NCBI GenBank assembly: GCA_014138725.1
Contig: JACJID010000001.1
Location: 930,001-994,000 of the forward strand
Direction: 5' to 3'
Source of the DNA: Kutzneria viridogrisea
Lineage (GTDB): Bacteria; Actinomycetota; Actinomycetes; Mycobacteriales; Pseudonocardiaceae
Length of the DNA stretch: 64,000 bases
Under the pieces are notes generated by a model that was given only the letters and a program-made list of their open reading frames with translations, was not told the origin of the DNA and did not search any database. Positions 6,225 to 56,559 of the stretch are shown piece by piece (the stretch's first letter is position 1; each line of letters starts with the position of its first letter). The position numbers and the translations under genes were made by a program.

Positions 6225-8119
6225 CACAGTGTGCTCAGCCCCATCGGCTGACAGGTCGGCAGCAGGGTGCGCAGCCGCTGGATCATCACGTGGCAGTAGC
6301 TGGCGTTCTGCTCGATGGTGTGGTGGCGGGGGACCGGCATCTTGCCGTCGCGCGGGTGCTCGAAGCACAGCCCGGTCGTGGGCTCGGACACCAGCCGCAG
6401 ATCCACCGGCAGCTGCGCCAACGCCTCGGGCAGCGACACCACGATCCTGGTGTCCTCGACCTCCAGCAGCCGCGCCTCGGTCAACTCGACGCCGGGTGCC
6501 TGCACTGGCTCGCGGTAGATGTAGGGCCGGGCGACCAGGTCCAGGTCGGTGGCACAGCGGGCGCCCGCGTCGGACCACCACGGCTGGGAACGGGCGAAGT
6601 CCAGCAGCAGCGCGTCGAAGGCGTGCCGGTGCGAGTGCAGCACGAGGTGCGCCGCCTTGCCGATGTTGAGCAGGTCGTAGTTGTCGGCGGTGGCCACCGA
6701 GTCCGCGACGAAGCGGCACAGCTCGTTGTCCGCCCGCTGCCAGAAGCTCGTCGCCGCGGTGAAGAAGTCCTCATAGGACTGAAGGCCGCTGCGGTCCAGG
6801 TAGCCGGCGAGGTGGTAGGCGCCGCGGGCGTTGTAGAGGCTCTGCACCAGGTAGTAGAACCAGGTGCCCTGCTCGCACTCGGCCCGGTCCACCCACCGGG
6901 TCGCCACCACCACGTCGGCCTCCGCCACGGGATCCGGCGCCCGCTCCACCTCGATGCCCATCGTCTCCCGCTGCTCGTACAGCGCGGTGTTGTGCAGCAG
7001 CAGCTGCGGGTAGACGGTGAGCGTGTCCGCCTCCAGCCGGCACAGCCGGGCGATCCCGGCCTTGAAGGTCGCCAGCGTCTCGCCGGGCAGCGGCCAGATC
7101 ATCTCGATGAAGGAGCTGATCCGCTTCTCGTTCAGGCTGCGCTGCAACTCGGTGTAGGTGGCCTCCCGGATGTTCTCCCGGTCGATCAGCCGCAGCGTGT
7201 CGGTGTTCACCGTCTGCAGCGAGATGGGCTGGCTGGTGACCAGGCCGCCGCGCACCAGGATCTCGGTGATCTCGGCCACCCGCTCCGGCCGGTTCTTCGC
7301 GGCGGCCAGCACCATCGAGGTGGGGAAGCCGAACTCCTCCTGGCAGCTCACGATGTGCTTGCTCAGCTCCACGTCCCTCGGCGACAGCCCCCAGTTGGCG
7401 TCGGCGATGAAGACGCTGGCCACGCCGTGCTCGGCGATCCACCGGATGTCCCCGCGCACGCGGTCCTCGTCGAACTTGTAGACCTTGGAGTTGGTCGCCG
7501 CGCCCCAGAAGCAGAATCCGCAGTGGAACGGGCAGCCGCGGTTGGTCTCCAGCACGGTGAACGTGTAGTCCTGGCCGTCGAACAGCCCGGCGGCGAACGG
7601 GGACGGCACGTCGTCGAGGGTGCGCAGCCGGGGCGGTTTGTCGGTGGTCACCAGCTCGCCGTGGCCGGTCCGGAAGGTCACGCCCGAGACCTCGGCGAGG
7701 TCCGGCTCGTCGACGAGCATCTGCCGCAGGAACTCGTAGCAGGGCTGCTCGCCCTCGCCGTTGCACACCACGACGTTGTTGGCGCCGGCCGGGATGTAGT
7801 CCGCGCCGTGGTTCATCACCTGCGCCCCGCCGAGCAGGAACCAGGCGTCGGGCCGTTCGGCCAGGAGTCCGGCCAGCAGCCGCCGGATCAGCCCGGTGTT
7901 CCAGATGTAGCAGCTGAACGCGTAGACGTCGCTGTCCAGGTCCAGCAGTTCGGCGAGGATCTGCTCGGGGTCCTGGCGCAGGCTGCGGGAGTAGAACCGG
8001 AAGTCCACCGACGCCGCGATGACGGGGTCCTGCATCGCGTAGGCCTGGAGGTAGCCGGACACCAGCGGGACTGTGTTGTCGTAGACCGAAAGCTCGACGA
8101 AGGTGACGTGCTTGGTCAT
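6224..8119 (-). CDS. B12-binding-domain radical SAM enzyme
   Basis: A 631-residue protein with an N-terminal cobalamin-type Rossmann domain (about residues 5-150, with YAFSCYIWNTG and FLLGGAQVMNHG). A radical SAM barrel follows, with the cluster motif CPFHCGFC (CxxxCxxC, about residue 205). The C-terminal region of about 200 residues is not one I recognise. Relatives methylate unactivated carbons or catalyse ring and rearrangement reactions, using SAM and cobalamin. It is sandwiched by 4-base overlaps between the A-T didomain upstream and the acyl-CoA dehydrogenase downstream, so the three products probably act on the same carrier-bound or free amino acid. The exact reaction is unknown. Confidence 0.92.
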   Translation of the reverse strand: MTKHVTFVELSVYDNTVPLVSGYLQAYAMQDPVIAASVDFRFYSRSLRQDPEQILAELLDLDSDVYAFSCYIWNTGLIRRLLAGLLAERPDAWFLLGGAQVMNHGADYIPAGANNVVVCNGEGEQPCYEFLRQMLVDEPDLAEVSGVTFRTGHGELVTTDKPPRLRTLDDVPSPFAAGLFDGQDYTFTVLETNRGCPFHCGFCFWGAATNSKVYKFDEDRVRGDIRWIAEHGVASVFIADANWGLSPRDVELSKHIVSCQEEFGFPTSMVLAAAKNRPERVAEITEILVRGGLVTSQPISLQTVNTDTLRLIDRENIREATYTELQRSLNEKRISSFIEMIWPLPGETLATFKAGIARLCRLEADTLTVYPQLLLHNTALYEQRETMGIEVERAPDPVAEADVVVATRWVDRAECEQGTWFYYLVQSLYNARGAYHLAGYLDRSGLQSYEDFFTAATSFWQRADNELCRFVADSVATADNYDLLNIGKAAHLVLHSHRHAFDALLLDFARSQPWWSDAGARCATDLDLVARPYIYREPVQAPGVELTEARLLEVEDTRIVVSLPEALAQLPVDLRLVSEPTTGLCFEHPRDGKMPVPRHHTIEQNASYCHVMIQRLRTLLPTCQPMGLSTL

Positions 8120-9897
8120 CGGGGCACCGCCGTTCGACGTTGTTCCCGCAGCGCGGCCGCGAGGTCCCTGAGCACGGGGTGGGCGTAGACGTCGTCGGGG
8201 CGCAGGACGAGCCCCCGGTGCCGCGACCGGCCGACCAGCCGGCTGACCCGCAGCGAGTCCCCGCCGATCTCGAAGAAGTTGTCGTGCGGGTTCACCTCGG
8301 TGGCGCCGAGGACCTCCAGCCAGGCCTCGGTCAGCGCGCGTTCCACCTCGTCAACGGGTTCCGGCGCCGGTTCGGCCCCCGGTTGACGCAGCGGCAGCTG
8401 GGCCAGAGCCCGCCGATCCACCTTGCCGTGCTCGGTCATCGGCAGCTGTTCGGTCGGCACCACCATCGCCGGAACCATGTAGTCGGGCAACCGCGCCTGG
8501 AGGAAACGGCGCAGTGCCACCGGGTCCACCGAGCCGTCGCGAGCGGTGACGTAGGCGAGCAGTTGCCGGTCCCGACCGATGACGACCGCGCGTCGGACAG
8601 TGGGGTGCGATTGCAGCACCGGCTCGACCTCGCCGGGGTCCACCCGGATTCCCCGGACCTGCACCTGGTCGTCGACCCGGCCGAGGAAGTGCAGTTGCCC
8701 GTCCGGCGCCCGCCGCACCAGGTCGCCGGTGGCGTAGGCCCGGGCTGCCGGTTCCGTGCGGAACGGGTCGGCCCAGAACTGGTTGTGCTCGGGAGAGCCC
8801 AGGTATCCCCGGGCCACGCCGACACCACCGAGGTGCAGCTCGCCCGGCTCGCCGTCTGCGACTGGATGGCGCCGTTCGTCCAGTACGTAGGCGAGTACGC
8901 CGGGTATCGGCGCACCGATCGGCGGCGGCTCGTCCGGCGGACCACCGGGGGGCACCTCGCAACACGTGGCCACCACCGTGCACTCGGTCGGCCCGTAGTT
9001 GTTGTGGAGCCGGAAGGGCAGCGCCGCGTCGGGGTAGCCGGTGAGCCGATCGCCGCCGACCAGCATGTCCCGCAGGCAGCCGTGATCCGGCCACGGCAGC
9101 TCCAGCAACTGCTCGGCCAGCGGCGTGGGCACGAAGGTGGTGGTGATCCCGGATCGGCACAGCCAGTCGCGCAGCTCGGCCGGGGCGGTCAGCAGGGCCG
9201 ACTCCACGACGTGCAGCGTGGCCCCGGCGGCCAGGCAGGGCCAGACCTCCAACGCGAAGGCGTCGAACGAGGGGCGGGCCAGCTGGGTGAGGTGGTCCTC
9301 GGGACCCACCTGATGCCGATCGAGGTACCAGTCCACGAGATTGGCCAGGCCGGCGTGTTCGACCAGCACGCCCTTGGGCGCACCGGAGGAGCCGGAGGTG
9401 TAGTTGAGGTAGGCCACGGCATCGTCCGGCACGGGCTCGGAAGGCCGTGCCGGTGTGCCGATCAGCAGCGGGCGCTGCGCGGCCGTCACGTCCACTGGCG
9501 ACAACCCCTCCACCCCCGTGGTGGCCCACAGTTCGGGACGGGTGATCACCACCCGGGCCGCGCTGTCGTCGAGCAGCAGACGGGTCCAGGCGGTGGGCTG
9601 CCGGACGTCGAGCATCAGGTACGCGGCGCCGGCCGCCAGCACGGCCGCCGCGGCGAGCACGCAGTCCACCGAGCGCTCCAGGTACACCGCGACCCGCTCG
9701 TCCTGCCGGACCCCGAGTTGGCGCAGCCGGTCGGCCAGGGCGTCCACCCGTTGCTGGAGTTCGCCGTAGGTGACGGAGGTGTGCTCGTCCACCACGGCGA
9801 CCGCCGCCGAGCGGCGGGCCGCCCACTCCGCGATCCGTTCCGGGACGGTGGAGCGGCGGGCGCTGTCTGCGCGCGGGCTTTGGCTTGCCTGCAGCAC
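8116..9897 (-). CDS. Stand-alone NRPS A-T didomain
   Basis: A 593-residue protein: an adenylation domain (about residues 20-510) with LNYTSGSSGAPKG (A3), NNYGPTECT (A5), YATGDLVR (A7) and the GKVDRRAL lysine (A10). A thiolation domain follows (about 520-590) with FFEIGGDSLR, the serine being the phosphopantetheine site. It has no C domain, so the activated amino acid must be modified and passed on in trans. My reading of the specificity pocket is D-A-L-F-M-V-N-V-V, which I cannot match to a known amino acid. The start is GTG with GAGGAGG six bases upstream. It is the first gene of the leftward operon and shares a 191-bp promoter region with the large NRPS. Confidence 0.93.
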   Translation of the reverse strand: MLQASQSPRADSARRSTVPERIAEWAARRSAAVAVVDEHTSVTYGELQQRVDALADRLRQLGVRQDERVAVYLERSVDCVLAAAAVLAAGAAYLMLDVRQPTAWTRLLLDDSAARVVITRPELWATTGVEGLSPVDVTAAQRPLLIGTPARPSEPVPDDAVAYLNYTSGSSGAPKGVLVEHAGLANLVDWYLDRHQVGPEDHLTQLARPSFDAFALEVWPCLAAGATLHVVESALLTAPAELRDWLCRSGITTTFVPTPLAEQLLELPWPDHGCLRDMLVGGDRLTGYPDAALPFRLHNNYGPTECTVVATCCEVPPGGPPDEPPPIGAPIPGVLAYVLDERRHPVADGEPGELHLGGVGVARGYLGSPEHNQFWADPFRTEPAARAYATGDLVRRAPDGQLHFLGRVDDQVQVRGIRVDPGEVEPVLQSHPTVRRAVVIGRDRQLLAYVTARDGSVDPVALRRFLQARLPDYMVPAMVVPTEQLPMTEHGKVDRRALAQLPLRQPGAEPAPEPVDEVERALTEAWLEVLGATEVNPHDNFFEIGGDSLRVSRLVGRSRHRGLVLRPDDVYAHPVLRDLAAALREQRRTAVPR

Positions 9898-9957: not shown

Positions 9958-9976
9958 GACCATGGGACCTTGGTCC
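9958..9976 (-). promoter_or_regulatory. Repeated operator-like element, copy 2 (inverted)
   Basis: A 19-bp match, on the minus strand, to the element at 1033-1053, including the whole 18-nt core. It lies about 60 bp upstream of the leftward A-T didomain start, facing its operon. Confidence 0.65.
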
Positions 9977-10017
9977 TGCTGTCGGTGATCGTGAGTGGCA
10001 CTCGTCTACCTGGGGCT

Positions 10018-10038
10018 GGGACCAAGGTCCCATGGTCC
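10018..10038 (+). promoter_or_regulatory. Repeated operator-like element, copy 3
   Basis: A 21-bp sequence identical to the copy at 1033-1053. It lies about 50 bp upstream of the large NRPS start and faces it. Copies 2 and 3 form a back-to-back pair, 41 bp apart, in the divergent promoter, as expected for a regulator serving both operons. Confidence 0.65.
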
Positions 10039-10088: not shown

Positions 10089-13000
10089 GTGAGGAGGCCG
10101 ACGGGTGCAGGCGATTCGGCAGCGGAGCTGTTCGTGCTGAGGGAGCAACCGCCGGCCCCGGACCTGGTCACGATGTTCCAGGCGCAGGCGCGCGCGACAC
10201 CGGAGGCCGTGGCGGTCGTCTTCGAGGACACCGCGCTCACCTTCGGCCAGCTCGACTCCCGGGCGACCCAGCTCGCGCACGCGCTCGTCGCCGAGGGGGT
10301 GGGCGCGGAACGCGTTGTCGCGCTGATGCTCCCCCGATCGGCCGAGATGGTCGTCGCGCTGCTGGCCGTGCTGAAGGCCGGCGGCGTCTGTCTGGCGGTT
10401 GACCCGCGGTATCCCGCCGACCGCATCGGTTACCTGCTCGGTGACGCCCGACCGGTGCTCCTGCTCGCCGACCGCCGCACGACGGATCGGATGCCGGCCG
10501 GGAACGGCACTCCGGTGCTGGTGCTCGACGATCCGGTCACCGCCGCCACGGTCGCCTGCTGCCCGGATGCCGACCTCGCGCCGGTCGACCCGGCGCAGGC
10601 GGCGTACGTGATCTACACCTCCGGGTCCACCGGGCGTCCCAAGGGCGTGGTCGTCAGCCACGGCAATGTGCTCAACAGTTTCCACGGCTACCGCGAGAAC
10701 GCCTACGCGATGTCGGTGCGGTCGGTCGGCGATCGCCGGCTGCGGGTCGTGCTGACGGCCTCGCTGTCCTTCGACGCGTCCTGGAGCCACCTGTTCGCGA
10801 TGTTCGCCGGGCACGAACTGCACATCGTGGACAACACCGTCTGGGCCGACCCGGACGCGGCGGTCTCCTACCTCGTCCGGCACCGGATCGACCACATCGG
10901 CAGCACGCCCTCGTACGTGCGACTGCTGCTGTCCCACGGCCTGCTCACCCACCCCTGGCGGCCGGTCACCGTCGGGGTGGGCGGCGAGCCGGTGCCCCCG
11001 CGGCTGTGGGCGGAACTCCGGGCGGCGGACGGCCTGAACTCGTACAACGCCTACGGCCCGACGGAGTGCACGATCGCCCCGCTCATCACCTCGCTGGAGG
11101 TGTCACCGGAGCCGGTGGTCGCCGGGCCCGTCCCGAACACCCGGGCCTACGTGCTGGACGCCCACTTGCGGCCGGCCGAGACCGGCGAACTGTACGTGTC
11201 GGGCGACGGCGTGGCCCGGGGGTACCTGGGACGGCCCGGACTGACGGCCGAGCGGTTCGTGCCCGATCCGTACGGACCGCCCGGCGCCAGGATGTACCGG
11301 ACCGGGGACGTGGTCACGCGGCGGGGCTCGGCGTTCGAGTTCCGCGGCCGGGTCGACGACCAGGTCAAGGTGCGCGGGTTCCGCATCGAGTTGCCCGAGG
11401 TCGAGGCGGTGCTCGGCGAGCACCGGGATGTCGGCCAGGTCGCGGTGATCGTCCGGGAGGACCGGCCGGAGGACAAGCGCCTGGTGGCCTACGTGGTGCC
11501 GGCGGGGGAGCGGCCGCGGCCGGAGCTGGTGCGGGAGCACGCGCGGAGTCGGTTGCCGGAGTACATGGTGCCGTCGGCCGTTGTCGTGCTGGACAGCCTG
11601 CCGATCGGGGTGAACGGCAAGGTCGACCCGTCCGCGCTGCCCGCGCCGGAAGCGCCCCCGGTCCTGGGCCGTGGCCCGAGCACGCCACGAGAGAATGTCC
11701 TGTGTGGACTGTTTGCCGAGGTGTTGGGCATATCTCAGGTCGGTGTCGATGATGACTTCTTCGCGCTGGGCGGTCATTCGCTGCTGTCCACCCGGCTGAT
11801 CTCCCGGGTCCGCGCAGAGTTGGGTGCTGAGCTGACGCTGCGCACGCTGTTCGACAACCCTACCGTCGCCCGGCTCGCGGCCACGATGAACACTGCCGTG
11901 CCGGCCCGACCGGCGCTGGCCGCCGGTGCGCGTCCGCCCGTTGTCCCGTTGTCGTTCGCCCAGCACCGCCTGTGGTTCCTCGATCAGTTGGAGGGCCCGA
12001 ACGCCACCTACAACATCCTGCTGGCCTGGCGGCTGTCCGGACCGCTCGACCATTCGGCGCTGCGATCCGCGCTGACCGACGTGATGGCCCGTCACGAGAG
12101 TCTGCGGACGGTTTTCCCGCAGACCGAGGGCGTCCCGTACCAGTTGGCCGTGGACGCGGCCGCGATCGTGGACCGCACGCGGATCGACGACTTGCCCGCG
12201 GCGCTGGCGAATACCGGACAGTACAAGTTCGATCTCGCCGAGGAACCGCCGGTTCGGACGGAGTTGCTCGAGCTGGCTCCGAACGAGCACGTGCTGGTCC
12301 TTCTGGTGCACCACATTGCCGCCGATGGTTGGTCCATGCGGCCGTTGACCCGGGACCTCACCGCCGCCTACACCGCCCGCTGCCAAGGACGGCACCCGGA
12401 GTGGGCGCCGTTGCCGGTGCAGTACGCGGACTACACGCTGTGGCAGCGAAATCTGCTGGGCGATCCGTCCGATCCGTCCAGTCTCTTCGCCACCCAGCTC
12501 GCGTACTGGACCGATGCGCTGGCTGGCCTGCCGGACTGCCTGCGTCTGCCGACCGACCGGCCGCGCCCGGCCATCCCGTCCTACCAGGGCGGCACCGTGC
12601 GAATGCGGTTCGACCCGGAGCTGCATCGTGACCTGGCGGCGCTGGCTCGGCGGCTCGGGGCGAGTGTGTTCATGGTGTTGCAGGCGGGATTGGCGGTCGT
12701 GCTCGGCAAGTTGGGGGCTGGCAACGACATCCCGGTGGGTTCCGCTATCGCCGGTCGCACCGACCAGGCCCTCGACGATCTGGTCGGCTTTTTCGTCAAC
12801 ACCCTGGTGCTGCGGACGAACACCGCCGGCGACCCGACCTTCGCCGAGTTGGTCAAGCGGGTCCGGGAGACGGCGCTGGACGCCTACGCCCACCAGGACC
12901 TGCCGTTCGAGTGCCTGGTCGAGGCGCTCAACCCGGAGCGTTCGCTGGCCTACAACCCGTTGTTCCAGGTCATGCTGGTGCTGGACAACGATCCGCGAAC

Positions 13001-16000
13001 CGAGTTCACGCTGCCGGGACTGGACGTCAGCCAACTTCCCCCACCGGGCAACGCCGCCAAGTTCGACCTGGCCTTCCGACTGACGGAGCGGCCCAGCCTG
13101 ACCGGGGTTCTCGAGTACGCCACCGACCTGTTCGAACACGGCACCGCCGAGGCGCTGGTGCAACGGTGGCAACGCCTGCTGTCCGAGGCCGTCGCTGATC
13201 CCGACCGTCCGCTCAGCCGGTTCGACGTGGAGCCGCTCGCTGTCCTCCGCCCAGACTCGCCCGGCGTCGCCGAGAACAAAGTCAGCCGACTCCCGCGGAC
13301 GCCCCAGGAACAGGTGCTGTGCGACCTGTTCGCCGAAGTGCTGGGGCGACCTCAGGTCGGTGTCGACGACGACTTCTTCGCGTTGGGCGGCCATTCGCTG
13401 ATGACCACCCGGCTGACCGCCCGCATCAGGGCGACCCTGGGCGTGGAAGTGCCGCTGCGCGTGCTGTTCCAGAAGCCCACGGTGACCGGCATTGCCGCCA
13501 GTCTGGCTGCTGCCGGTCCGGTCCGGCCGGCCCTGACCACCAGCGAACGCCCGGATGTCCTGCCGCTGTCCTTCGCCCAGCACCGGTTGTGGTTCCTCGA
13601 CCAGTTGGAAGGTCGGAGCGCCAACTACAACATCCCGTTCGCGCTGCGGCTTTCCGGCCGGCTCGACCGCTCGGCGCTGCAATCCGCGCTGACCGACGTG
13701 ATGGCCCGCCACGAGAGTCTGCGGACGGTCTTCCCCCAGGCCGACGGTGTTCCGTACCAGCAGGTTGTGGACGCGGTGGCAACGCTGGAGGTCAGGCCGG
13801 TCGACGATCTGTCGGCCGCGGTGGAGAGTGTGGCGCGGTGCCAGTTCGATCTGGCGGTGGAACTGCCGATTCGGACGGTGTTGTTCGAGTTGGCCGCGGA
13901 TGTGCACGTGTTGTTGCTGGTGGTGCATCACATTGTGGCCGATGGCTGGTCGATGCATCCGTTGTCGCGTGATCTTGCTACGGCGTATGCCGCTCGTTGT
14001 CGCGGTATGGAGCCGGATTGGGCTCCGTTGCCGGTGCAGTATGCGGACTACACGGTGTGGCAGCGGAGTCTGCTGGGTGATCAGTCTGATGAGGACAGTC
14101 TGGCCGCCGAACAGTTGGCCTATTGGGCCGAGGCGCTGGCCGGGGTGCCCGATCAGCTGGAGCTGCCCACGGATCGCCCCCGCCCGGCCGTGTCGACGTA
14201 TCAGGGCGAATGCGTGCCGGTTCGGCTGGAGGCGTCGCTGCATCGCGACCTGGTCGCCCTCGCCCGTCAGTGCGGGGCGAGTGTGTTCATGGTGTTGCAG
14301 GCGGGTTTGGCTGCTCTGCTCACGAAGCTGGGTGCTGGCGAGGACATTGCGTTGGGGAGTCCGATCGCCGGTCGTACGGATCAGGCGCTTGACGACTTGG
14401 TCGGTTTTTTCGTCAACACGCTGGTGTTGCGGACCGACACCTCCGGCAATCCGACTTTCACCGAGTTGGTGAAGCGGGTTCGCGAGACGGCGCTGGACGC
14501 CTACGCCCATCAGGATGTTCCGTTCGAGTACCTGGTGGAAGTCCTCAACCCCACCCGCTCACTGTCCCACCACCCCCTCTTCCAGATCATGCTCGCCCTG
14601 GACACCGCGCCGCGCGCCCAGTTCGCACTGCCGGGCCTGGATGTCACGCTGCTGCCCACCCCGACCGTCACCGGCGCGTTCGACCTGGCGTTCAGCCTGT
14701 CCGAGCGGCACAGTCCGGATGGCCTCCCGGACGGCATCGTCGGCACCATCGAGTACTCCACGGACCTGTTCGACCAGGCCACCGTGACCACGCTGCTGGC
14801 CCGGTGGCAACGCCTGCTGGCCGCGGCGGTCACTGCCCCGGACCACCCGCTCAGTCGGATCGAAATCCTGAGCGCCAACGAGCTGCGCCACCTGGTCGAC
14901 CACAACGACACCAGCGCCCCGGTCCCGACCGACACCCTGCCCGCCCTGTTCGCGGCCCAGGCGGCACGCACCCCGGACGACACCGCCGTCGTGTTCGGCG
15001 AAACCACTCTCACCTACGCGCAGCTCAACGCTCGCGCGAACCAACTGGCCCGCCTGCTGATCGACCGAGGAGTCGGTCCGGAATCACTGGTGGCACTGCT
15101 CATGGAGCGGTCCGCGGAAGCGATCGTGGCGCTGCTGGCGGTGCTCAAGGCCGGCGGCGCGTACGTGCCGATCGATCCCGGCTACCCGGCCGCCCGGATC
15201 GACGCCATGCTCGACGGCGTGCGGCCGGTCTGTGTGCTGACCGCGACCAACATGGCCGCGGCGGTCGAGTACCCGGACACCGACTTCGAGGCGCCGATCC
15301 ACCCGGAGCACCCGGCGTACGTGATCCACACCTCCGGCTCCACCGGCGCGCCCAAGGCCGTGGTCGCCACCCACCGCGGCATCGTCAACCTGTTCCACCA
15401 CCATCGGGCGAACCTGTTCGCGCAGACCATGGCGAAGGCTGGCCGCCAGCGGCTGCGCATCGCCCAGACCTCCTCGCTGTCGTTCGACGCCTCGTGGGAC
15501 CAACTGTTGTGGATCTTCGCCGGGCACGAGCTGCACGTGGTGGACGACGCCACCTGGTCCGACCCCGACGAATTCGTGCGCCACGTCGCCGAGCGGCACA
15601 TCGACTACCTGGACACCACGCCGTCGTACCTGCGGCAGCTGGTGGCCGGCGGGCTGCTCGACGGACCCGGCTGGCATCCGGTGACGGTCATGGTGAGCGG
15701 CGAGGCCACCTCCGAGCAGTTCTGGGCGGAACTGCGGGCGAAGCCGGAGACGCTGGCGTTCAACTTCTACGGCCCGACCGAGTGCGCAGTCGACTCGCTC
15801 ACTGCCTCGCTGGGCGACTCACCCACCCCCGTGCTGGGCCGCCCGGTGACCAACACCCAGACCTACGTGCTGGACGCGGCGCTGCGACCGGTGCCGCCGG
15901 GCGTGGTGGGCGAGTTGTACGTGGCCGGCGTCGGACTGGCGCGCGGGTACCTGGGGCGGCCCGGACTGACGGCTGAGCGGTTCGTGGCCGACCCGTTCGG

Positions 16001-19000
16001 GCCGCCGGGGACCCGGATGTACCGGACCGGTGACCTGGTTCGGTGGCGTGACGGCGGGCTGGAGTTCGTGGGTCGGGCCGACGACCAGGTCAAGCTGCGC
16101 GGGTTCCGGATCGAGCTGGGCGAGATCGAGGCGGTGCTGCGGGCCCATGACGGGGTCGACCAGGTCGTGGTGGTGGTGCGCGAGGACCGCCCGGGCGATC
16201 AGCGACTGGTGGCGTACGTCGTGACGGCGCAGCGGCCGGCGGTGCTGCGCGCGTACCTGCGGGAGCGGTTGCCGGACTACATGGTGCCGTCCACCTACGT
16301 GGTGCTGGAAAGCCTGCCGTTGGCGGCCAGCGGCAAACTGGACCGGGCCGCGCTGCCGGCGCCGGAGATGCCGTCCGCGGTTGGCCGGGCGCCGCGAACC
16401 CCGCAGGAGCAGTTGCTGTGCGGGCTGTTCGCCGAGGTGCTGGGCGTGCCCGGGGTTGGGGTGGACGACGACTTCTTCGCCCTGGGTGGGCATTCGCTGC
16501 TGGCCACCCAGCTGGCGGCCCGCGTGCGGGCGACTCTCGGCGTGGAACTGGGGCTACGGCTGGTGTTCGAGGTCCCGACAGCGGCCGGTATGGCGGCCGG
16601 CCTGGACCAGATGGGACGGGCCCGGCTGGCGTTGACCGCGGGGGAGCGGCCGGCCGCGGTGCCGTTGTCGTTCGCGCAACAGCGGCTGTGGTTCCTGCAC
16701 CAGTTGGAAGGCCCCAACTCCACCTACAACGTGTCGCTCGCCCTGCGCCTGTCCGGCGAACTCGACCGTAGCGCGCTTCAGGCGGCGCTTGGTGATGTCG
16801 TGCTGCGGCACGAGAGTCTGCGCACGGTCTTCCCGCAGGTGGAAGGCGTGGCATACCAGGATATTCTGGATCGCACCCCCACCCTGGAGGTCACGCGGGT
16901 CGACGACCTGTCGGAGCCGCTGTTGGCGGCCATGAAACACAACTTCGATCTCGCCTCGGAACTGCCGATCCGGACCGCGTTGTTCGAGCTCGCCCCGGAC
17001 GAGCACGTGTTGCTGATCCTGGTGCATCACATCGCCGCCGACGGCTGGTCGTTGAGCCCGTTGGCGTTGGATCTGGCACAGGCGTACGCGGCGCGACGGC
17101 AGGGACAGGACCCACAGTTGCCGCCACTTCCGGTGCAGTATGCGGACTACACGCTGTGGCAGCGGAGTCTGCTGGGTGATCAGTCCGATGAGGACAGTGT
17201 CTTCGCCGAGCAGCTGGCCTATTGGACCGAGACGCTTGCCGGGTTGCCGGACCAACTGCAACTGCCCACCGACCGCCCGCGTCCGCCGGTCGCCTCCTAC
17301 CGCGGCGATCACGTGTTCGTCCGCCTGGATGCCGGCCTGCACGCCGAGCTGGTGGAGTTGGCCCGTCGGTGCGGGGCGAGTGTGTTCATGGTGTTGCAGG
17401 CGGGGTTGGCCGCTTTGCTGACCAAACTGGGTGCCGGCAACGACATCGCCCTGGGTAGTCCGATCGCCGGCCGCACCGACCAGGCCCTCGACGACCTGGT
17501 CGGGTTTTTCGTCAACACGCTGGTGCTGCGGACCGACACCGGTGGCAACCCCACCTTCACCGACCTGATCAAGCGGGTCCGGGAGACGGCGCTGGACGCC
17601 TACGCCCATCAGGACGTGCCGTTCGAATACCTGGTGGAAGTCCTCAATCCCACCCGCTCCCTGTCCCGGCACCCCCTCTTCCAGATCATGTTGGCGCTGC
17701 ACAACGCCCCGCAGACCGATTTCACCCTGCCTGGCCTGGACGTCGAGTTCGTGTCCACTCCCACCACCACCGCCAAGTTCGACCTGTCGTTCGACCTCAC
17801 CGAGCGGCGCGGTCCCGGCGGCGCCGCCGAGGGCATCGGCGGTGTCCTGGAATACGCCACGGACCTGTTCGACCGGGCCGGCGTCGAGGCCTTCGTGGCC
17901 CGCTGGGTGCACCTGCTGGAAACCATGGTCGCGGTTCCCGAACTGACGATCAGCCAGGTCGACGTGCTCAGTGCCGAGGAACGACACCAGCTGCACACCT
18001 ACAACGACACCGCCGCCCCGGTTCCCGTGATCAGCCTGCCGGCGATGTTCGAGGCCCAGGTGCGGGCCACCCCGGACGCGCCGGCCGTGGTGTTCGAGGA
18101 GACCACCGTCACCTACGCCCAGCTCAACGCCCGGGCCAACCAGTTGGCGCACGCCCTGATCGCCCGCGGCGTCGGCGCCGAGCAGATCGTGGCGCTCGCG
18201 CTGCCCCGGTCGGCCGAGATGATCGTGGCGCTGCTGGCCGTGTTCAAGACCGGCGCCGCCGGCCTGCCGGTGGATCCGGAGTACCCGGCCGAGCGGATCT
18301 CGTTCATGCTCAGCGATGCTCGGCCGTCCTTGTTGTTGACCCACGCCGGTTTCGCACCCGCGGACACGCCCCGGCTGGTGGTGGACGATCCGGTGACCGC
18401 CGCGGAGATCAGCCGCGGCCCGGAGACCGATCCCGGCCCGCGAGCCGAACCCGCGAACGCGGCGTACGTGATCTACACCTCCGGTTCCACCGGCACCCCC
18501 AAGGCCGTGGTCATGTCCGGCGGCGGCTTGCTGAACCTCCTGCTGTGGCACCGCACGGCCTTCCCTGGTGGCCCCGGGGCCCGCACCGCACAGTTCACCG
18601 CGCTCAGCTTCGACGTGTCGGTGCAGGAGGTCCTGTCCACCCTGATGTACGGAAAGACGCTGGTGGTGCCGACCGACGAGGTGCGGCACGACTCCGCCCT
18701 GCTGGCCGAGTGGCTGGACCGGCACGAGGTCACGGAACTGTTCGCGCCGAACCTGGTCGTGCGCAGCCTCGCGCAGGCCGCCAACGAACAGGGCCGGAGC
18801 CTGCCCTGCCTACTGGACATCGCGCAGGGCGGCGAGCCACTGGTGCTGGACAGCGAGGTGCGCGAGTTCTTCCAACGAGCCCCGGGCCGGCGGCTGCACA
18901 ACCACTATGGGCCTTCGGAGACGCATGTCATCACCACCTACATGGTGCCCGAAGATCTCGACTGTCCGCAGCCGGCGCCGATCGGCCGGCCCATGCCCAA

Positions 19001-22000
19001 CTCCCGGGTGCACGTGCTGGATTCCGCGTTGCGGCTGGTGCCGCCGGGTGTGGTGGGGGAGCTGTACATCAGCGGCCTGTCCATGTCCCGCGGATACCTG
19101 CGTCGGCCGGGGCTGACCGCCCAGCGGTACGTGGCCGATCCCTACGGGCCGGCCGGGAGCCGGATGTACCGGACCGGGGACCTCGTCCGCTGGCACGACG
19201 GTGAGCTGGAGTTCGTCGGCCGGGTCGATCACCAGGTGAAGGTGCGGGGGTTCCGGATCGAGCTGGGGGAGATCGAGTCGGTGCTGCGCGCCCATCCCGG
19301 CGTGGACCAGGTCGCCGTGGTGGCGCGCGAGGATCGGCTGGTGGCCTACGTCGTGTCGGCGGAACGAGGTGAGGTACTGCGCGGCTTCGTTCGCGACCGG
19401 CTGCCGGAGTTCATGGTGCCGTCGGTGTTCGTGCCACTCGAACGCCTGCCGCTCACGGTGAACGGCAAGCTGAACCGGGCCGTCCTACCGGTGCCGGAGC
19501 TGGCCGCGGTGCGCGGTCGTGCGCCGCGCACCCCGCAGGAGGAGCTCCTCTGCGGGCTGTTCGCCGAGGTGCTGAGGGTTGCTCAGGTCAGTGTCGATGA
19601 CGACTTCTTCGCGCTGGGTGGGCATTCCCTGTTGGCCACACGGTTGATCGCCCGCATCCGGACGACTCTGGGCGTGGAAGTGAGTCTGCGCGCCCTGTTC
19701 GACAACCCCACGGTCGCGGGCGTGGCGCGGCTGCTGCGTGGCGCGGACGAGGCCCGACCGTCGTTGGCGGCGGGGGAGCGTCCGGATGTCGTGCCGTTGT
19801 CCTTCGCCCAACACCGACTCTGGTTCCTGCACCAGTTGGAGGGCGTCAGTCAGAACATCGCCCTCACCCTGCGCCTGTCCGGCCAGCTGGACCGTGGCGC
19901 GTTGCAGGCCGCGTTCGCCGATGTGGTGACCCGTCACGAAAGTCTCCGCACCGTGTTTCCGCAGACGGACGGGGTGGCCCGCCAACAGGTTGTCGGCACC
20001 GTGCCCTCGCTGCTGATCACCCGGATCGACGAGTCCGAGCTGTCGGCCGCGGTGGAGAGCGCGACGCGGTGCCAGTTCGATCTGGCGACGGAATTGCCGA
20101 TCCGGACGGTGTTGTTCGAGTTGGCCGCGGATGTGCACGTGTTGGTGCTGGTGGTGCATCACATCGCCGCCGACGGCTGGTCGATGTACCCGTTGTCGCA
20201 CGATCTGACCACGGCCTATGCCGCTCGTTGTGAGGACAGGGCGCCGGACTGGTCGCCGCTGCCGGTGCAGTACGCGGACTACACGGTGTGGCAGCGAAGT
20301 CTGCTGGGTGACCAGTCCGATGAGGACAGTCTCGTCGCCGAGCAGTTGGCCTATTGGACCGAAGCGCTGGCCGGGTTGCCCGACCAGCTGGAACTGCCCA
20401 CCGACCGGCCGCGCCCGGCCGTCAACTCCTACCGCGGTGACGGGGTGCCGGTACACCTCGACGCGGAACTGCATCGTGACCTGGCGGCGCTGGCTCGGCG
20501 GCTCGGGGCGAGTGTGTTCATGGTGCTGCAAGCGGGTTTGGTGGCTGTGCTCGGCAAGTTGGGGGCCGGCAACGACATCGCGGTGGGTTGCCCGATCGCC
20601 GGCCGTACCGACCAAGCCCTCGACGATCTGGTCGGGTTCTTCGTCAACGCCCTGGTGCTGCGGACGAACACCAGTGGCAATCCCACTTTCACCGAATTGG
20701 TGAAGCGGGCTCGGGAGACGGCGCTGGACGCCTATGCCCATCAGGATGTTCCGTTCGAGTACCTGGTGGAAGTCCTCAACCCCACGCGGTCCCTGTCCCA
20801 CCACCCGTTGGTCCAGGTCATGCTGGCGCTCCAGAACGCCCCGGAACTGGGCTTCTCCTTGCCCGGCCTCGACATCAGCCAGGTCCCGACGCCCGTCACC
20901 ACCGCGGAGTTCGATCTCGCGTTCAGCCTCTGGGAGCGGCGCGGCTCCGACGGCACGGTCGACGGCGTGCACGGCGTCCTCGAGTACAGCACCGACCTGT
21001 TCGACCGCAGCAGCGTCGAAACCCTCGTCACCCGCTGGACCGGCCTGCTGCGGGCGTTGATCGCCGACCCGGACCGCCCCATCGGACAGTTCGACGTCCT
21101 CACCGACGACGAGCGAGACCGGTTGCGTGCCTACAACGACACCGCCACCCCGATCCCGACCGCGACCATGGCGACCCTGTTCGAACGACAGGAACCCGAC
21201 GCCGTGGCCCTCGTGGACGCCGGAATCGAACTGACCTACCGGGAGGTCAACGAGCGGGCCAACCGCCTGGCCTGGCTGCTGATCGAGCAGGGGATCGGCC
21301 CGGAACGGATCGTGGCGTTGCGGATGCGCCGGTCCGCCGAGCTGGTCATCGCCCTGCTGGCCGTGCTCAAGGCCGGCGGCGCGTACCTGCCGGTGGATCC
21401 GGAGTACCCGGCCGAGCGGATCTCGTTCATGCTGAGCGACGCCCAACCGGCGTTGGTGCTGACCGAGATCCCCGCCGCCGCGGCGACGTACCCGGCCGAC
21501 AACCCCGCGATCCCGGTGCTGCCGGCCAACTCCGCGTACGTGATCTACACCTCTGGCTCGACCGGAAGGCCGAAAGCGGTGGTCAACACCCACGTCGGGG
21601 TGGCCAGCCTCGCCGTGTCGCAGACCGAACGGTACGCGATCGGGCCGGGCGACCGGGTGCTCCAGTTCTCCTCACCCAGCTTCGACCTTTCGGTCATCGA
21701 GCAGCTGATGGCGTTCCCGGCCGGAGCCACCCTGGTGATCCCGCCGCCGATCCCGCTGGCCGGCTCCGCCCTCGCCGAGGTGCTCGCCGAGCAACGGATA
21801 ACCCACGCGTTCATTCCGACAGCCACGCTGACCACCGTGCCCGTGCAACCCCTGCCGGCGCTGCGCACCCTCGTGTTCGGCGGTGAGATCTGCCCGCCGG
21901 CGCTGGTGGCGGCCTGGGCCACCGGCCGGCGGATGGTCAACGCGTACGGACCCACCGAGAGCACGGCCTGCGCCAGCATGACTGATCCGCTGGCCGACAC

Positions 22001-23606
22001 CATCCCGCTGCCACCGTCGCTCGGCCGGCCGGTGGCGAACACTCAGCTGCACGTGCTGGACCCCGGCCTGCGTCCCGTGCCGCCAGGTGTGGTGGGGGAG
22101 CTGTACCTCGGTGGTCTGGGGGTGGCTCGGGGCTATCTGAATCGGCCCGCGCTGACGGCCGAACGGTTCGTGGCCGATCCGCACGGCCCGGCCGGGAGCC
22201 GGATGTACCGGACCGGCGACCTCGTGCGGTGGCGTCCGGACGGGGACCTGGAGTTCGTCGGCCGGGCCGATCACCAGGTGAAGCTGCGGGGGTTCCGGAT
22301 CGAGCTGGGCGAGATCGAGACCGTGCTGCGCGACCACCCCGAGGTGGCCGAGGCCGTGGTGACGGCGCGGGACAACCGGCTGGTGGCGTACGTGGTGCCA
22401 CCGGTGGACGCCCCGGCGCTGCGGCGGTTCCTGCGGGACCGGTTGCCGGAGTTCATGGTGCCGTCGGTGCTCGTGCCGCTGGAAAGCCTGCCGCTGTCGG
22501 TGAACGGCAAACTCGACCGCCTCGCCCTGCCGGAGCCCGACGTGGTCTCCACCGGCGGCCGGGCGCCGCGAACCCCGCAGGAGGAACTGCTGTGCGGGCT
22601 GTTCGCGGAGATCCTCGGCGTGCCGAGGGTCAGCATCGACGACGACTTCTTCGCGCTGGGCGGGCATTCCCTGCTGGCCACCCGGCTGATCGCCCGCATC
22701 GGCGCGACCCTGGGCGCCGAGCTGGGGCTGCGCACCCTGTTCGAGCACCCGACCGTGGCCGAGCTGGCGACCCGCCTGGACATCGACGAGCCCGCCGACG
22801 CCGTGGACGTGATCCTTCCGTTGCGGGCCAAGGGCAGTCGGCCGCCACTGTTCTGCATCCACCCGGCCGGCGGCCTGGGCTGGGCCTACAGTGGCCTGCT
22901 CCGGCATCTCGACCCGGACCGTCCGATCTACGCGGTGCAGGCCCACAACCTCGCCGGGACCGGCCCGCTGCCGACCTCGGTGCGGCAGATGGCCGCCGAC
23001 TACGTCGACGAGATCCGCGCGGTGCAGCCGACCGGTCCCTACCACCTGCTTGGCTGGTCCTTCGGCGGTCTGGCCGCCCACGCGGTGGCCACCGAGTTGC
23101 ACCGGCGCGGGGAGCGGACCGCCACGCTGGCCATGCTCGACTCCTGCCCGGTGTGCGATCTGCCCGAGAAACCGGTGCCCAGCGAGCGCAGCATCCTGGC
23201 GCTGCTGCTCCTGCTGTTCGGGACCCCGCAGGACGGCGAGCCCGTGCGGTTCACGCTGGACGGCACGCCGGACACCGACGACCCGGTCACCTTCGAGCAG
23301 TTCGTGGCCATCCTGCGCGGCCGGGGCAGCGCGCTGGCCAGCCTGTCCGAGCGGCACGTGACGGCGATCGCGGACACCATGCTGAACAACACCCGGCTGG
23401 CGCCCGAACACGTCCCGGACTTCTTCCCCGGCGACCTGTTGCTGTTCACGTCCACATTGGACCCAAGGGTGGCCACTCCCGAGGCGTGGCGGCCCTATGT
23501 CGGCGGCGCGATCGAGAACCACGACATCGTCAGCCGCCACCACCGCATGACCCAACCCGAGTCACTGGCCCAGATCGGGCCGATCCTGGCCGCCAAACTC
23601 CGCTGA
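10089..23606 (+). CDS. Multimodular nonribosomal peptide synthetase, A-T-C-T-C-A-T-C-A-T-C-A-T-TE
   Basis: A 4505-residue synthetase. Approximate residues: A1 27-530, T1 535-600, C1 619-1050, T2 1070-1140, C2 1156-1594, A3 1615-2096, T3 2104-2170, C3 2190-2624, A4 2641-3137, T4 3146-3214, C4 3233-3664, A5 3688-4152, T5 4161-4229, TE 4241-4505. All four C domains keep HHxxxDG (HHIAADG or HHIVADG), and every T domain keeps LGGHSL. The TE has GWSFGG. There is no epimerase. Module 2 is C-T without an A domain, so T2 must be loaded in trans or bypassed. Pocket readings by eye: A4 D-V-Q-F-I-Q-H-V-I resembles proline codes. A3 D-A-D-D-M-S-F-V-D has acids suited to a cationic side chain. A1 and A5 are unassigned. 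The GTG start has only a distant GGGAGG. The product would be a peptide of four or five residues released by the TE. Confidence 0.97.
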
Positions 23607-23617: not shown

Positions 23618-24613
23618 ATGCACACACCCGAGCTGTACGTCGCGGGCCTTGGCGCCTACCTGCCCGCGCGGGTCAGCACAGCCGACGCCGTGTCCCGGGG
23701 TTGGTACTCCGCCGAGCAGGCCGACGCCAGCGGTATCACCTCGGTGTGTGTCGCCGACGAGCACGTGGCCGCCGAGATGGCCGTGCTGGCGGCGAAGGAG
23801 GCGCTGGGCAGTTCGCCGCCACCGGTGCGGGCGGTGCTGCACGCCTACCTCAACTCCCAGGGCCCTCGGTACTGGAGCGCCGCGCCGTACATCGCGTTGC
23901 ACACCCTCGGCACCGGAGTGCCCGGCTACGACATGCTCCTGTCGTGCAACGGCGGCCTGGCCGCGGTGGAACTGGGCGCGCGACTGCTCGCCGACGGCGG
24001 CGGCCACGTGCTGGTCACCGCGGCCGACCGGTTCGACACGGTGGGCTTCGACCGGTGGAACTGCGACTCCCAAACGGTGTTCGGCGACGGTGCCGGTGCG
24101 ATGCTGCTGAGCACGCACGGCGGCTTCGCTCGAATCACCGCCATCGCGACCGGCATCGACAACGGCCTGGAGGCCGAGTCGCGCGGTGACGGGTTCCCGC
24201 CCGATGCCGGGCCGGTGGACTTCACCGGGATGCGCGAGCGGTACCTGAACCACGTGATGCCCGTGCCCGAACACCTGGAGCGGATCAAGGACGTGATCAC
24301 GGCGACGCTCAAGCGGGTGCTGGACGAGGCCGGCGTCACTCCCGACCGGATCACCCGCGCGGTGCCGGTCGTGGCCACCCAGCCGGTGATTCTCGGCCTG
24401 TTCCAACGCATCCTGGGCCTCGACGACACTCTGTCCACTTGGGACTTCGGTGCGACGACCGGGCACCTGGGCGCCGCCGACAACCTGGTCGGCCTGCACC
24501 ACCTGGTGACGACCGGCGCCGTGCGCCCCGGCGACACGGTGTTGCTGGTCGGTGGGGGCAGCGGCTTCACCTGCACGCTGGCGGTCGTCGAGGTGACGGA
24601 GCCGGTGCCATGA
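23618..24613 (+). CDS. KASIII-like (thiolase-fold) acyltransferase homologue
   Basis: A 331-residue protein with the FabH fold signature: an early GAYLPARV strand and the nucleophile Cys110 in MLLSCNGG. A FGDGAGAMLL segment and a late GGGSGF loop also match. The other two catalytic residues of FabH are not conserved: the HQAN position reads ATQPV, and the GN of GNTSAAS reads GH in TTGHLGAAD. Such changes occur in KASIII-like enzymes that transfer acyl groups to O, N or S instead of condensing with malonyl-ACP. It starts 11 bp after the NRPS stop with GAGGGGAG upstream, and its end overlaps the next A-T gene. A role in moving an acyl or aminoacyl group between carriers, or in acylating the peptide, is inferred. 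Confidence 0.85.
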   Translation: MHTPELYVAGLGAYLPARVSTADAVSRGWYSAEQADASGITSVCVADEHVAAEMAVLAAKEALGSSPPPVRAVLHAYLNSQGPRYWSAAPYIALHTLGTGVPGYDMLLSCNGGLAAVELGARLLADGGGHVLVTAADRFDTVGFDRWNCDSQTVFGDGAGAMLLSTHGGFARITAIATGIDNGLEAESRGDGFPPDAGPVDFTGMRERYLNHVMPVPEHLERIKDVITATLKRVLDEAGVTPDRITRAVPVVATQPVILGLFQRILGLDDTLSTWDFGATTGHLGAADNLVGLHHLVTTGAVRPGDTVLLVGGGSGFTCTLAVVEVTEPVP

Positions 24614-26271
24614 ACGTGCGGGAACGGCTTGCCGAACACGACCCGGACCGGCCGGCCGTGCACAGCGTCGAGGGCGTGACCAGCTACGGTGAGCTCGCGG
24701 AACTGGTGAACCAGTGCGCGGCGGTGCTGTGGGCACTGGGGTTGGCCCCCGGCGAGATCCTGGCCGTGGAGTTGAACGAGGGCCTGCCGGCGGTGATCGC
24801 GTTGGTGGCCGCGTTGCGGGCCGAGGTGCCCTTTGTCTGGCTGGACCCCGCCTACCCGCCGATGCGCCGCGAGCAGGTGGTGCGGGACTGCCGGCCGGCG
24901 GCGCTGCTCACCTGGGAAGGCGGCCGACCCGTCGTCCGCCGTGTCGGCGGCCGGCCGGTGACGGTGCCGGCGGACACCGGCTGTGTGGTGTACACCTCGG
25001 GCTCCACCGGCATTCCCAAGGGAATCGTGCAGCGCCGCGTCAATCTCGACCAGTTCACCCGCTGGTTCGCCGCGGAGTTGGCGCTGGCGCCGGGAAGCCG
25101 GATGTTGCAGTGGGCCATGATGACCTACGACGCCGCCTACGCCGAGGTGCTCGCGGCGCTGTACGCCGGGGCGACCCTGGTGGTGCCGTCCGCCGGCGAG
25201 AAGGCCGATCCGGTCCGGATCGCCGCGCTGGTCGGCGAGCAGCGGATCAGCCACCTGCTGACCGTTCCCAGCCTGTGCCGGGCGCTGTTCGCCGCCCGCC
25301 CCGACCGGCCGCTGCCCGAGGTCGGATCGCTGAGCCTGTTCGGCGAGGTGCTGCCACCGAATCTGCTCACGGCCGCGACCCGTCTCCTGCCCAACGCCGA
25401 GATCCGCAACTTCTACGGGCCCACCGAGTGCACCCTGGCCACCTGGTACCGCGTGCCGCCCGGGTTCACCGGCGAGGTGGTGCCGATCGGGCGCCCCATC
25501 CCGGGGCGCGAGATCCTCCTGGACGGCGGCGAGGTCCTGGTCCGCTCCCGCTACCTCGCGCACGGCTACCTGGGCCGCGAACACGAGACGGCACAACGGT
25601 TTCTGGCTGACCCGGACGGTGATCCGGCGATCCGGGTGTACCGCACCGGCGACCTCGGACGGTACGACGCGGACGGGGAGTTGGTGTTCGTCGGCCGGCT
25701 GGACGACGAGGTGAAGATCCGCGGCGTGCGGGTCCGGCTCGGCGACATCGAGGCGGCCTTGTTGACCGCGCCCGATGTCGCCGAGGTGGCCGTGCGGCTG
25801 CACGGCGTCGACCAGGTGGCGCCGAAGATCGTCGCGTACGTTGCCGCGCACCCCGACCGCCGGCCGGATGTGACCGCATTGCGCCGCCACGCGGTGCGCG
25901 CGCTGCCGCCGGTCATGGTGCCCGCCCACTACGTGCTGCTCGACGAGCTGCCCCGCACGTCGACCGGCAAGGTGGACCGGGCGGCGCTGCCCGTGCCCGC
26001 GTCGGCGCCCCACGGCGGCTCGCCCAGCGGTGAACTGGAGCGGGAGCTGGCCTGCATCTGGCGGGAGGCCATCGGATGCGCCGAGGTCGGTGTGGACGAC
26101 GACTTCTTCGGAGTCGGCGGCTACTCCCTACTCGCCCCGAAGGTGGTGGCCCAGGTGCGGGTCCGGCTGGGTCTGGCCGTGCCCCAGCGGGCGGTGTTCG
26201 ACCACTCCCGGTTCGGCGACTTCGCCGCCTACCTCACCACACTGCGCGCGCCCACGAAGGAGCAACCATGA
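24610..26271 (+). CDS. Second stand-alone NRPS A-T didomain
   Basis: A 553-residue protein: a compact adenylation domain (about residues 10-465) with [30 protein letters not shown] and TSTGKVDRAAL, then a T domain with DDFFGVGGYSLL. The serine is the phosphopantetheine site, in GGYSL rather than the usual GGHSL. My pocket reading, D-A-A-L-S-F-F-L-A, matches no code I know. The ATG overlaps the KASIII-like stop, and the stop overlaps the MIO enzyme start, so the three are tightly coupled. This suggests that the A-T loads the lyase/aminomutase product (or its precursor) and that the KASIII homologue moves it on, perhaps to the A-less module of the NRPS. That chain is inference. Confidence 0.92.
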   Translation: MNVRERLAEHDPDRPAVHSVEGVTSYGELAELVNQCAAVLWALGLAPGEILAVELNEGLPAVIALVAALRAEVPFVWLDPAYPPMRREQVVRDCRPAALLTWEGGRPVVRRVGGRPVTVPADTGCVVYTSGSTGIPKGIVQRRVNLDQFTRWFAAELALAPGSRMLQWAMMTYDAAYAEVLAALYAGATLVVPSAGEKADPVRIAALVGEQRISHLLTVPSLCRALFAARPDRPLPEVGSLSLFGEVLPPNLLTAATRLLPNAEIRNFYGPTECTLATWYRVPPGFTGEVVPIGRPIPGREILLDGGEVLVRSRYLAHGYLGREHETAQRFLADPDGDPAIRVYRTGDLGRYDADGELVFVGRLDDEVKIRGVRVRLGDIEAALLTAPDVAEVAVRLHGVDQVAPKIVAYVAAHPDRRPDVTALRRHAVRALPPVMVPAHYVLLDELPRTSTGKVDRAALPVPASAPHGGSPSGELERELACIWREAIGCAEVGVDDDFFGVGGYSLLAPKVVAQVRVRLGLAVPQRAVFDHSRFGDFAAYLTTLRAPTKEQP

Positions 26272-29032: not shown

Positions 29033-29236
29033 CCATATTTCGGGTTTTCATGAAAGAGTTCGGGTATGGTAGGCCCCTTCTTTCGTCCGGTCTGCCGTCG
29101 GCAGCGTGTCTGGCGGAACCACTGTTTCTTTCAGACGCAGTCGCTTGGGTTTGCTGGTCTGTTGGGTTTCGGCCGTTCGGGCCAAACGGGTGAATTCTCT
29201 CGACCGGTCGATCGCCCATGTGGTAGCGTCGAAAAT

Positions 29237-29254
29237 TGATTGTAAAAACAATCA
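29237..29254. promoter_or_regulatory. AT-rich palindrome upstream of the LuxR gene
   Basis: TGATTGT, four A residues, then ACAATCA form a perfect 7-bp inverted repeat inside an AT-rich patch about 70 bp before the LuxR start. A likely operator, perhaps for the regulator itself or for another activator. TTTCATGAAA at 29046-29055 is a second short palindrome in the same 289-bp intergenic region. Confidence 0.5.
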
Positions 29255-29321
29255 CTTCTCTTCATCCTGTGAATTGTGGGGACTGTTCGGAAGAGTCGGT
29301 GTCAAGGCAAGTGGGGGTTCG

Positions 29322-56527: not shown

Positions 56528-56559
56528 CGGCTTCCTCTCCTGCTGTGGTGACGGCGTCG

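Follow-up and report, generated by a model that had tools for sequence, protein, structure and literature searches.

A KASIII-like protein as candidate aminoacyl shuttle to an adenylation-less module in a non-ribosomal peptide synthetase cluster of Kutzneria viridogrisea

How might a module of a non-ribosomal peptide synthetase (NRPS) be supplied with a residue that it has no domain to select? The question is raised by a 4505 aa NRPS encoded within a 64,000 nt stretch of the Kutzneria viridogrisea genome (assembly GCA_014138725.1, contig JACJID010000001.1, positions 930,001 to 994,000; hereafter 'the window'), the second module of which consists of a condensation (C) domain and a carrier (T) domain, T2, with no adenylation (A) domain. 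An earlier sequence-only reading of the locus had proposed that T2 is charged in trans by one of two stand-alone A-T didomains, here termed A-T1 and A-T2, through a KASIII-like protein encoded between the NRPS and A-T2, and that the residue is modified on a private carrier. We find that the A-less module is intact and is conserved in a second genus, that T2 is likely to be loaded in trans, and that the KASIII-like protein is probably the shuttle.

The A-less module and its conservation

Pfam matches to the NRPS comprise four Condensation, four AMP-binding, four AMP-binding_C, five PP-binding and one Thioesterase (TE) domains; motif positions give the order A1-T1-C1-T2-C2-A2-T3-C3-A3-T4-C4-A4-T5-TE, which confirms the four C domains and the A-less carrier between C1 and C2 that had been read from the sequence. 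The conserved motifs A3 (at residues 176, 1747, 2796 and 3820) and A5 (at residues 322, 1894, 2940 and 3953) of the A domains leave none between the C1 motif HHIAADGWS at residue 741 and the C2 motif at residue 1280, and the hidden Markov model (HMM) bounds of C1 and T2 are separated by only 19 residues. A hidden A domain between C1 and C2, which at residues 1050-1156 would have counted against the earlier reading, is thereby ruled out. T2 is itself intact, having a GGHSL motif with the phosphopantetheine-bearing Ser1103; the TCG codon of this residue is at 13395-13397, a few bases away from the 13387-13395 originally assigned to it. Hence C1-T2 is an A-less C-T module with an intact carrier serine. 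When compared with other C domains, the four from this NRPS clustered with those that directly follow a T domain (nearest distances 0.79-0.95) and were distant from those following presumed epimerisation domains (nearest 2.58-2.74), the latter being deduced from domain order with no dedicated model; therefore, L- or achiral donors are expected.

Using the TrpB-like protein of the cluster as bait, a sister cluster was found in one other of 297 genomes of the family, belonging to a different genus and consisting of a single 10.9 Mb contig. Positions 1002-29034 of the window align with it in 28,103 columns at 89.7% identity, and each of the 14 cluster genes is represented there, the KASIII gene and both A-Ts included. 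The sister NRPS is colinear and has the same A-less module (4491 aligned columns, 87.8% identity). Pairwise ratios of non-synonymous to synonymous substitution rates (dN/dS, with bootstrap intervals) were 0.27 (0.13-0.59) for T2 and 0.26 (0.19-0.36) for C1, as compared to 0.19-0.24 for C2-C4 and 0.18, 0.16, 0.20 and 0.56 (0.16-2.04) for T1, T3, T4 and T5 respectively. As the remaining T and C domains span these values, T2 and C1 appear to be about as constrained as their neighbours. Together with the colinear sister cluster, this makes assembly error or decay of the module unlikely, and both explanations were discarded on these grounds.

A-less modules are not rare in themselves in this NRPS-rich genome, which has 107 Condensation matches. 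A survey of 17 NRPS stretches and the first 30 kb of the window, covering many, but not all, of these matches, found A-less C-T modules at four of 71 T domains (that of the window included), with three more T domains following truncated A domains; the GGxS serine motif is kept in all seven of these carriers. A fourth truncated module, the A domain of which sits in another frame, was flagged separately. One 7555 aa NRPS (G000:C1:130001-163000) contains one A-less and three truncated-A modules, with intact serines, and has thioesterase genes on both sides. These two type II thioesterase genes, together with nearby open reading frames of 1271 and 1066 aa bearing A and T domains, represent the known arrangement. 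Another NRPS, of 8557 aa (G000:C7:384001-413500), contains two A-less C-T modules.

The KASIII-like protein

The operon runs NRPS, KASIII, A-T2, aminomutase, TrpB-like enzyme. Tight overlaps had been noted on both sides of the KASIII gene: that with A-T2 holds, the KASIII stop overlapping the A-T2 start by 4 nt, but on the NRPS side the most likely start is the ATG at 23618, preceded by GGGGAG and lying 11 nt past the NRPS stop, and it is only an alternative TTG start at 23603 that would overlap the NRPS. The closest solved relatives of the protein are CerJ (4.8e-62), ChlB3 (5.7e-51) and DpsC-type proteins (5.2e-49), as against 2.1e-16 for the best FabH-type match. Condensing KASIII enzymes of the FabH type have a Cys-His-Asn triad, which is not matched here: the active-site column is His with an adjoining conserved Asp, and Cys110, His283 and Asp288 (numbered from ATG 23618) align with Cys113, His296 and Asp301 of ChlB3. 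In an alignment of the window's protein with 27 homologues, the first triad column contains Cys in 15 sequences, Ser in 12 and Ala in one, whilst His is present in 28/28 and Asp in 26/28.

The Cys-His-Asp triad has been described for acyl transfer in CerJ and ChlB3, the latter transferring 6-methylsalicyl from ChlB1 to ChlB2 (PMC9573744). AfcL, a KASIII-like protein with the same triad, has been shown to hold an aminoacyl or peptidyl thioester, and beta-alanyl thioesters are taken onto its cysteine (PMC12186527); hence there is precedent for an aminoacyl thioester on a KASIII of this kind. Similarity and triad together support assignment of the window's protein to the CerJ/ChlB3 acyl-transfer clade. 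Its relatives are widespread at low stringency, with a match at E <= 0.001 in 300 of 397 genomes of the order (the best, besides the query, at 41% identity), yet just two of seven genomes in the genus reach 1e-40 and eight of 394 in the class reach 1e-55, own genome included in each case, with 45% identity for the best other. A scan of the genome contigs detected one distant locus (27%). Queries with the aminomutase, the TrpB-like enzyme and the radical-SAM enzyme matched nothing in 20 loci encoding relatives; an A domain occurs in one of these loci, together with a fusion of decarboxylase and carrier, and an NRPS-polyketide synthase hybrid in another. As the arrangement is not repeated in these 20 loci, the relatives were set aside as a guide to function.

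Neither a SyrC/CmaE/CysB-type shuttle nor one of the type II thioesterase kind was recognised in this cluster. Apart from the TE of the NRPS itself, there was no alpha/beta-hydrolase Pfam match among the other 13 cluster genes, and phmmer identified no type II thioesterase, either across the 64-kb window or across 60 kb of the sister. Given the intact, A-less T2, the triad, the position of the gene in the operon and the failure to detect a thioesterase shuttle, it is reasonable to suppose, as the sequence-only reading had done, that T2 is loaded in trans by way of the KASIII-like protein.

Donor of the T2 residue and alternative explanations

Pfam matches and HMM bounds bear out both A-T didomains as lacking a C domain. 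A-T1 lies in a divergent operon, translationally coupled to a B12 radical-SAM enzyme that is followed by an acyl-CoA-dehydrogenase-like flavoprotein. The radical-SAM enzyme has B12-binding and Radical_SAM Pfam matches and a CxxxCxxC motif, and matches CysS at 2.4e-156; against the KedN5 model it scores 286 bits, under the cut-off of 700. Seven of 394 class genomes, own included, have a homologue at 1e-80, with identities of 52-54% in five and 41% in the sixth. In the five, the genes for an A-T, the radical-SAM enzyme, an acyl-CoA dehydrogenase and a type II thioesterase adjoin one another in that order, whilst the sixth has the A-T and radical-SAM genes with a thioesterase beside them (Pfam confirmed the thioesterases of two loci; those of the others were identified by phmmer with one of these two as query). 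No KASIII was detected in these six loci, of 28-40 kb each, so it appears that the A-T1 cassette can work without one; conversely, neither of the two KASIII-bearing clusters has a detected thioesterase shuttle. All five of the complete cassettes (L085-L094; genomes G673, G542, G734, G680 and G694) are accompanied by an MIO-type aminomutase, and that of G542, which is perhaps enediyne-like, also by an HpaB-type hydroxylase, a sugar aminotransferase and a molybdopterin oxidoreductase.

The A-domain codes, read by hand against GrsA positions, are DASGGGAIA, DADDMSFVD, DVQFAGHVI and DLIFVGAAC for A1 to A4, DALFLGNVV for A-T1 and DAALSFFLA for A-T2. Codes extracted by script agree fully for A3, A4 and A-T1, have the last one or two columns misaligned for A1, A2 and A-T2, and are identical in the sister except at one A-T2 position (S to G). 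From these codes we use two points, as hints only: that of A-T1 looks Leu-like, and the A2 pocket is acidic.

In the scheme that we prefer, the NRPS would make a pentapeptide, with module 2 unable to choose its own residue. A-T2 would activate this residue and keep it on its own carrier, from which the KASIII cysteine would take the aminoacyl group and hand it to the T2 thiol; C1 would then add the T2-bound residue to the chain and C2 would pass it on. A-T1, together with the acyl-CoA dehydrogenase and the radical-SAM enzyme, would make a second, separately tailored residue, which would either be released and then activated again by one of the cis A domains or be carried by the same KASIII. 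What the sequence shows is the domain order, conservation, the triad, the gene order and the lack of a detected thioesterase shuttle, whereas the transfers, the choice of donor and the substrates are all inferred. The features expected for modification on a private carrier are indeed present, but the acyl-CoA dehydrogenase and radical-SAM enzyme sit with A-T1 and not with A-T2. A-T2 is preferred as donor because it shares one operon with the KASIII gene, which it overlaps, and because the A-T1 cassette occurs elsewhere without a KASIII. Furthermore, in the case of eponemycin, it is proposed that a type II thioesterase releases a tailored Leu from an A-T and that a cis A domain then activates it again (PMC9943649); a similar route for A-T1, with its Leu-like pocket, would leave T2 for A-T2. 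Donation by A-T2 rather than A-T1 is therefore only moderately supported, and we hold the scheme as a whole tentatively, as one that may well prove correct.

Several observations weigh against it. The thioesterase-linked A-T1 cassettes of the relatives equally suggest that here a KASIII replaces the thioesterase for A-T1; the cargo would then be a residue dehydrogenated and C-methylated on the private carrier of A-T1, with A-T2 serving some other step. The coupling of A-T1 to the radical-SAM and acyl-CoA dehydrogenase genes fits such private-carrier chemistry, and cystobactamid biosynthesis follows this logic, with a residue tailored on a stand-alone carrier before it is shuttled. We nonetheless consider this unlikely, given that the KASIII gene is in the operon of A-T2 whilst A-T1 is on the divergent one, that KASIII was not detected beside the related cassettes, and that the eponemycin route requires no A-less module. 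The dN/dS values come from one genome pair and a simple method, with wide intervals for 75-codon domains. In both genomes, T2 has a higher isoelectric point (pI) than any of the other six T domains (6.8 and 7.2, versus 4.7-6.1), and a pI trend has been suggested for the donor-to-acceptor direction from CysH to CysK (PMC7966384); however, 38, 22 and 17 of 63 cis-loaded T domains have a pI below those of the three other surveyed A-less T domains, which thus do not stand out, making the T2 value weak support. Finally, no thioesterase, KASIII or short A/T open reading frame was detected in the 364-433.5 kb region around the 8557 aa NRPS on contig C7 (384-413 kb), hence a recognisable shuttle need not adjoin an A-less module.

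A rather improbable alternative is that T2 is loaded directly by an A-T, or via a thioesterase encoded elsewhere in the genome, with the KASIII-like protein carrying out other chemistry such as acyl synthesis or acylation of the finished peptide. Spontaneous carrier transfer, from PacP to PacH, and thioesterase shuttles have both been described (PMC8748450), thioesterase genes are present near the 7555 aa NRPS, and KASIIIs build acyl starters in other NRPS clusters, as with MypJ (PMC10817943) and EpnD (PMC9943649). The Cys-His-Asp triad is, though, that of the transferases, and the cluster yielded neither a free carrier other than those of the A-Ts nor a starter C domain. For viomycin and capreomycin, a single A domain has been proposed to load two T domains (as stated in PMC8552735), but loading of T2 by A1 or A2 of the same NRPS would leave both stand-alone A-Ts and the KASIII unexplained, and neither domain displays an unusual feature in the analyses run; we regard it as very improbable. 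Least probable of all is a tetrapeptide product, with T2 staying unloaded and the chain bypassing module 2: the C1-T2 linker is poorly conserved relative to the sister (36% over 14 residues), yet the T2 and C1 motifs are intact and under neighbour-like constraint in two genera.

A-less C-T modules fed by a stand-alone A-T are already known, with shuttles described for them that are either of the SyrC/CmaE/CysB type or type II thioesterases, such that only the class of shuttle would be new; and since the KASIII-like CloN2 and CouN2 move a pyrrole acyl group between carriers, novelty is limited to the A-less-module case. The routes of chain translocation listed in PMC8748450 are a C domain, a ketosynthase (KS) domain, thioesterase hydrolysis with re-activation, a CmaE-type transferase, spontaneous transfer and transfer by a type II thioesterase, and the term 'KASIII' does not occur in the available part of that text. 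As here, the A-T self-charges and a third protein transfers the residue in LgnB-LgnA-LgnD of legonmycin and legonindolizidine and in WS5/WS20 of WS9326A, but in the LgnA system the shuttle is a type II thioesterase, whereas here none was found and the KASIII-like gene occupies that place in the gene order (PMC8748450). RthA/RthB/RthD of rotihibin, for which enduracidin is the precedent, likewise combine an A-less module 2, an A-T and a proposed shuttle, with RthD being thioesterase-like and there being one A-T candidate fewer than the two in this cluster (PMC8552735). In cystobactamid CysH-CysB-CysK, a residue is tailored on a stand-alone module and then shuttled to module 3 of CysK, but CysB is SyrC/CmaE-like and the recipient retains an inactive A domain (PMC7966384); among solved structures, CysS of the same pathway comes closest to the present radical-SAM enzyme. 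The known cargoes of CerJ and ChlB3, malonyl and 6-methylsalicyl, are not proteinogenic-type aminoacyl groups destined for an NRPS module (PMC9573744). AfcL of AFC-BC11 comes closer, in handling an aminoacyl or peptidyl thioester in an NRPS-type pathway, but that pathway is without condensation domains and its cargo goes to lysyl-CoA (PMC12186527). A full-text search, with subscription literature mostly outside its reach, found no paper in which a KASIII-type protein delivers to an A-less NRPS module.

We lean towards the view that, for A-less modules, KASIIIs of the CerJ/ChlB3 clade make up a third group of aminoacyl shuttles alongside the SyrC/CmaE/CysB and type II thioesterase classes, one of them having been recruited here in place of a thioesterase to link a stand-alone A-T with an A-less C-T module. 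If so, a Claisen-condensation fold would have been adapted to carry aminoacyl groups for NRPS carriers, separately from the alpha/beta-hydrolase shuttles, providing an extra part for putting non-standard residues onto NRPS modules; it would also give a rule for genome mining, in that such a KASIII gene beside an A-T and an A-less module would mark a residue loaded in trans.

Other genes, candidate operators and the remainder of the window

The cluster extends over approximately 56-29876 (Table 1), and unites a guanidine-transfer enzyme, an aminomutase, a B12 radical-SAM enzyme and a TrpB-like enzyme. The aminomutase-like protein scores 514.5 bits against TIGR03832 (cut-off 501) and matches the tyrosine aminomutase structure 2qve, of the SgcC4 type, at 5.9e-124; its MIO-forming Ala-Ser-Gly lies in GSLGASGDISPL. 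The best reading of the cluster is that it directs biosynthesis of a guanidino- or aromatic-type peptide, possibly one of five residues with a guanidino group and an aromatic beta-amino acid. No known product matching it was recognised in the literature search. The TrpB-like enzyme carries TTGNWG, where TrpB proteins presumably have a GAGQ-type motif, and which we take to be closer to the SGN-type motifs of dehydratases and threonine synthases; it is 90% identical to its counterpart in the sister, with otherwise about 39% identity or less in 394 class genomes.

Table 1. Features of the cluster, with positions in the window
Feature	Position	Strand	Basis
GNAT acetyltransferase-like gene, kept in sister	56..874	-	sequence match
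Candidate operator GGGACCAAGGTCCC before amidinotransferase operon, also in sister	1033..1046		motif scan
Amidinotransferase, Arg:Gly amidinotransferase/HsvA/SxtG kind	1147..2217	+	HsvA 5.2e-126
Fatty-acid-desaturase-like di-iron enzyme	2227..3189	+	Pfam
Conserved protein, HxD...H pattern, possibly 2-oxoglutarate dioxygenase; no Pfam or PDB match	3176..4048	+	authors' reading
Ornithine cyclodeaminase/mu-crystallin family reductase-like protein	4112..5065	-	Pfam, family models
Acyl-CoA-dehydrogenase-like flavoprotein	5082..6224	-	profile match
B12 radical-SAM enzyme; CysS and TokK closest solved structures	6224..8119	-	Pfam, structure match, CxxxCxxC
A-T1, stand-alone didomain, Leu-like pocket, proposed tailoring platform	8116..9897	-	Pfam, HMM bounds, pocket code
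Candidate operator, two motif copies, 19-nt inverted repeat, between A-T1 and NRPS operons	9958..10037		sister palindrome at same spot
NRPS	10089..23606	+	Pfam, motifs, domain bounds
C1, condensation domain of A-less module	11943..13229	+	HMM bounds, HHIAADGWS motif, dN/dS
T2, carrier without own A domain	13284..13505	+	motif, HMM bounds, dN/dS, pI
C2, would take T2-bound residue as donor	13560..14882	+	HMM bounds, C-domain grouping
KASIII-like acyltransferase, proposed aminoacyl shuttle	23618..24613	+	CerJ/ChlB3 similarity, triad, start analysis
A-T2, stand-alone didomain, GGYS carrier motif, proposed T2 donor	24610..26271	+	Pfam, HMM bounds
MIO-type tyrosine 2,3-aminomutase-like enzyme, ASG motif	26268..27887	+	TIGR03832, structure match, motif
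TrpB-like fold-II PLP (pyridoxal phosphate) enzyme, start codon uncertain	27884..29032	+	Pfam, family models
LuxR-type regulator	29106..29876	+	sequence match; sister counterpart

A motif GGGACC-NN-GGTCC(C) occurs with no mismatch at 1033-1046, 9964-9976 and 10018-10031, and in the two matching places in the sister. The two copies between the divergent operons are separated by a 42-nt spacer in the window, whilst the sister has one palindrome there. With one mismatch allowed, the window contains eight copies against a mean of 5.6, a count reached by 19 of 100 shuffles and not significant; weight is placed on the position and conservation of the exact motif and not on its count, and these suggest that both loaders belong to one pathway.

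Elsewhere in the window, a putative amino-acid halogenase of the HalD type is encoded at 60686-61375 (PF23169, 9.8e-100), near a split transketolase pair (61435-62223 and 62285-63211), a class IV aminotransferase, a Gfo/Idh oxidoreductase and a short-chain dehydrogenase/reductase (SDR); the region 55745-63211 looks like a separate small-molecule pathway. A BTAD/NB-ARC SARP-like regulator is encoded at 42502-45297, and a homologue with 59% identity is found approximately 16 kb past the other end of the sister cluster.

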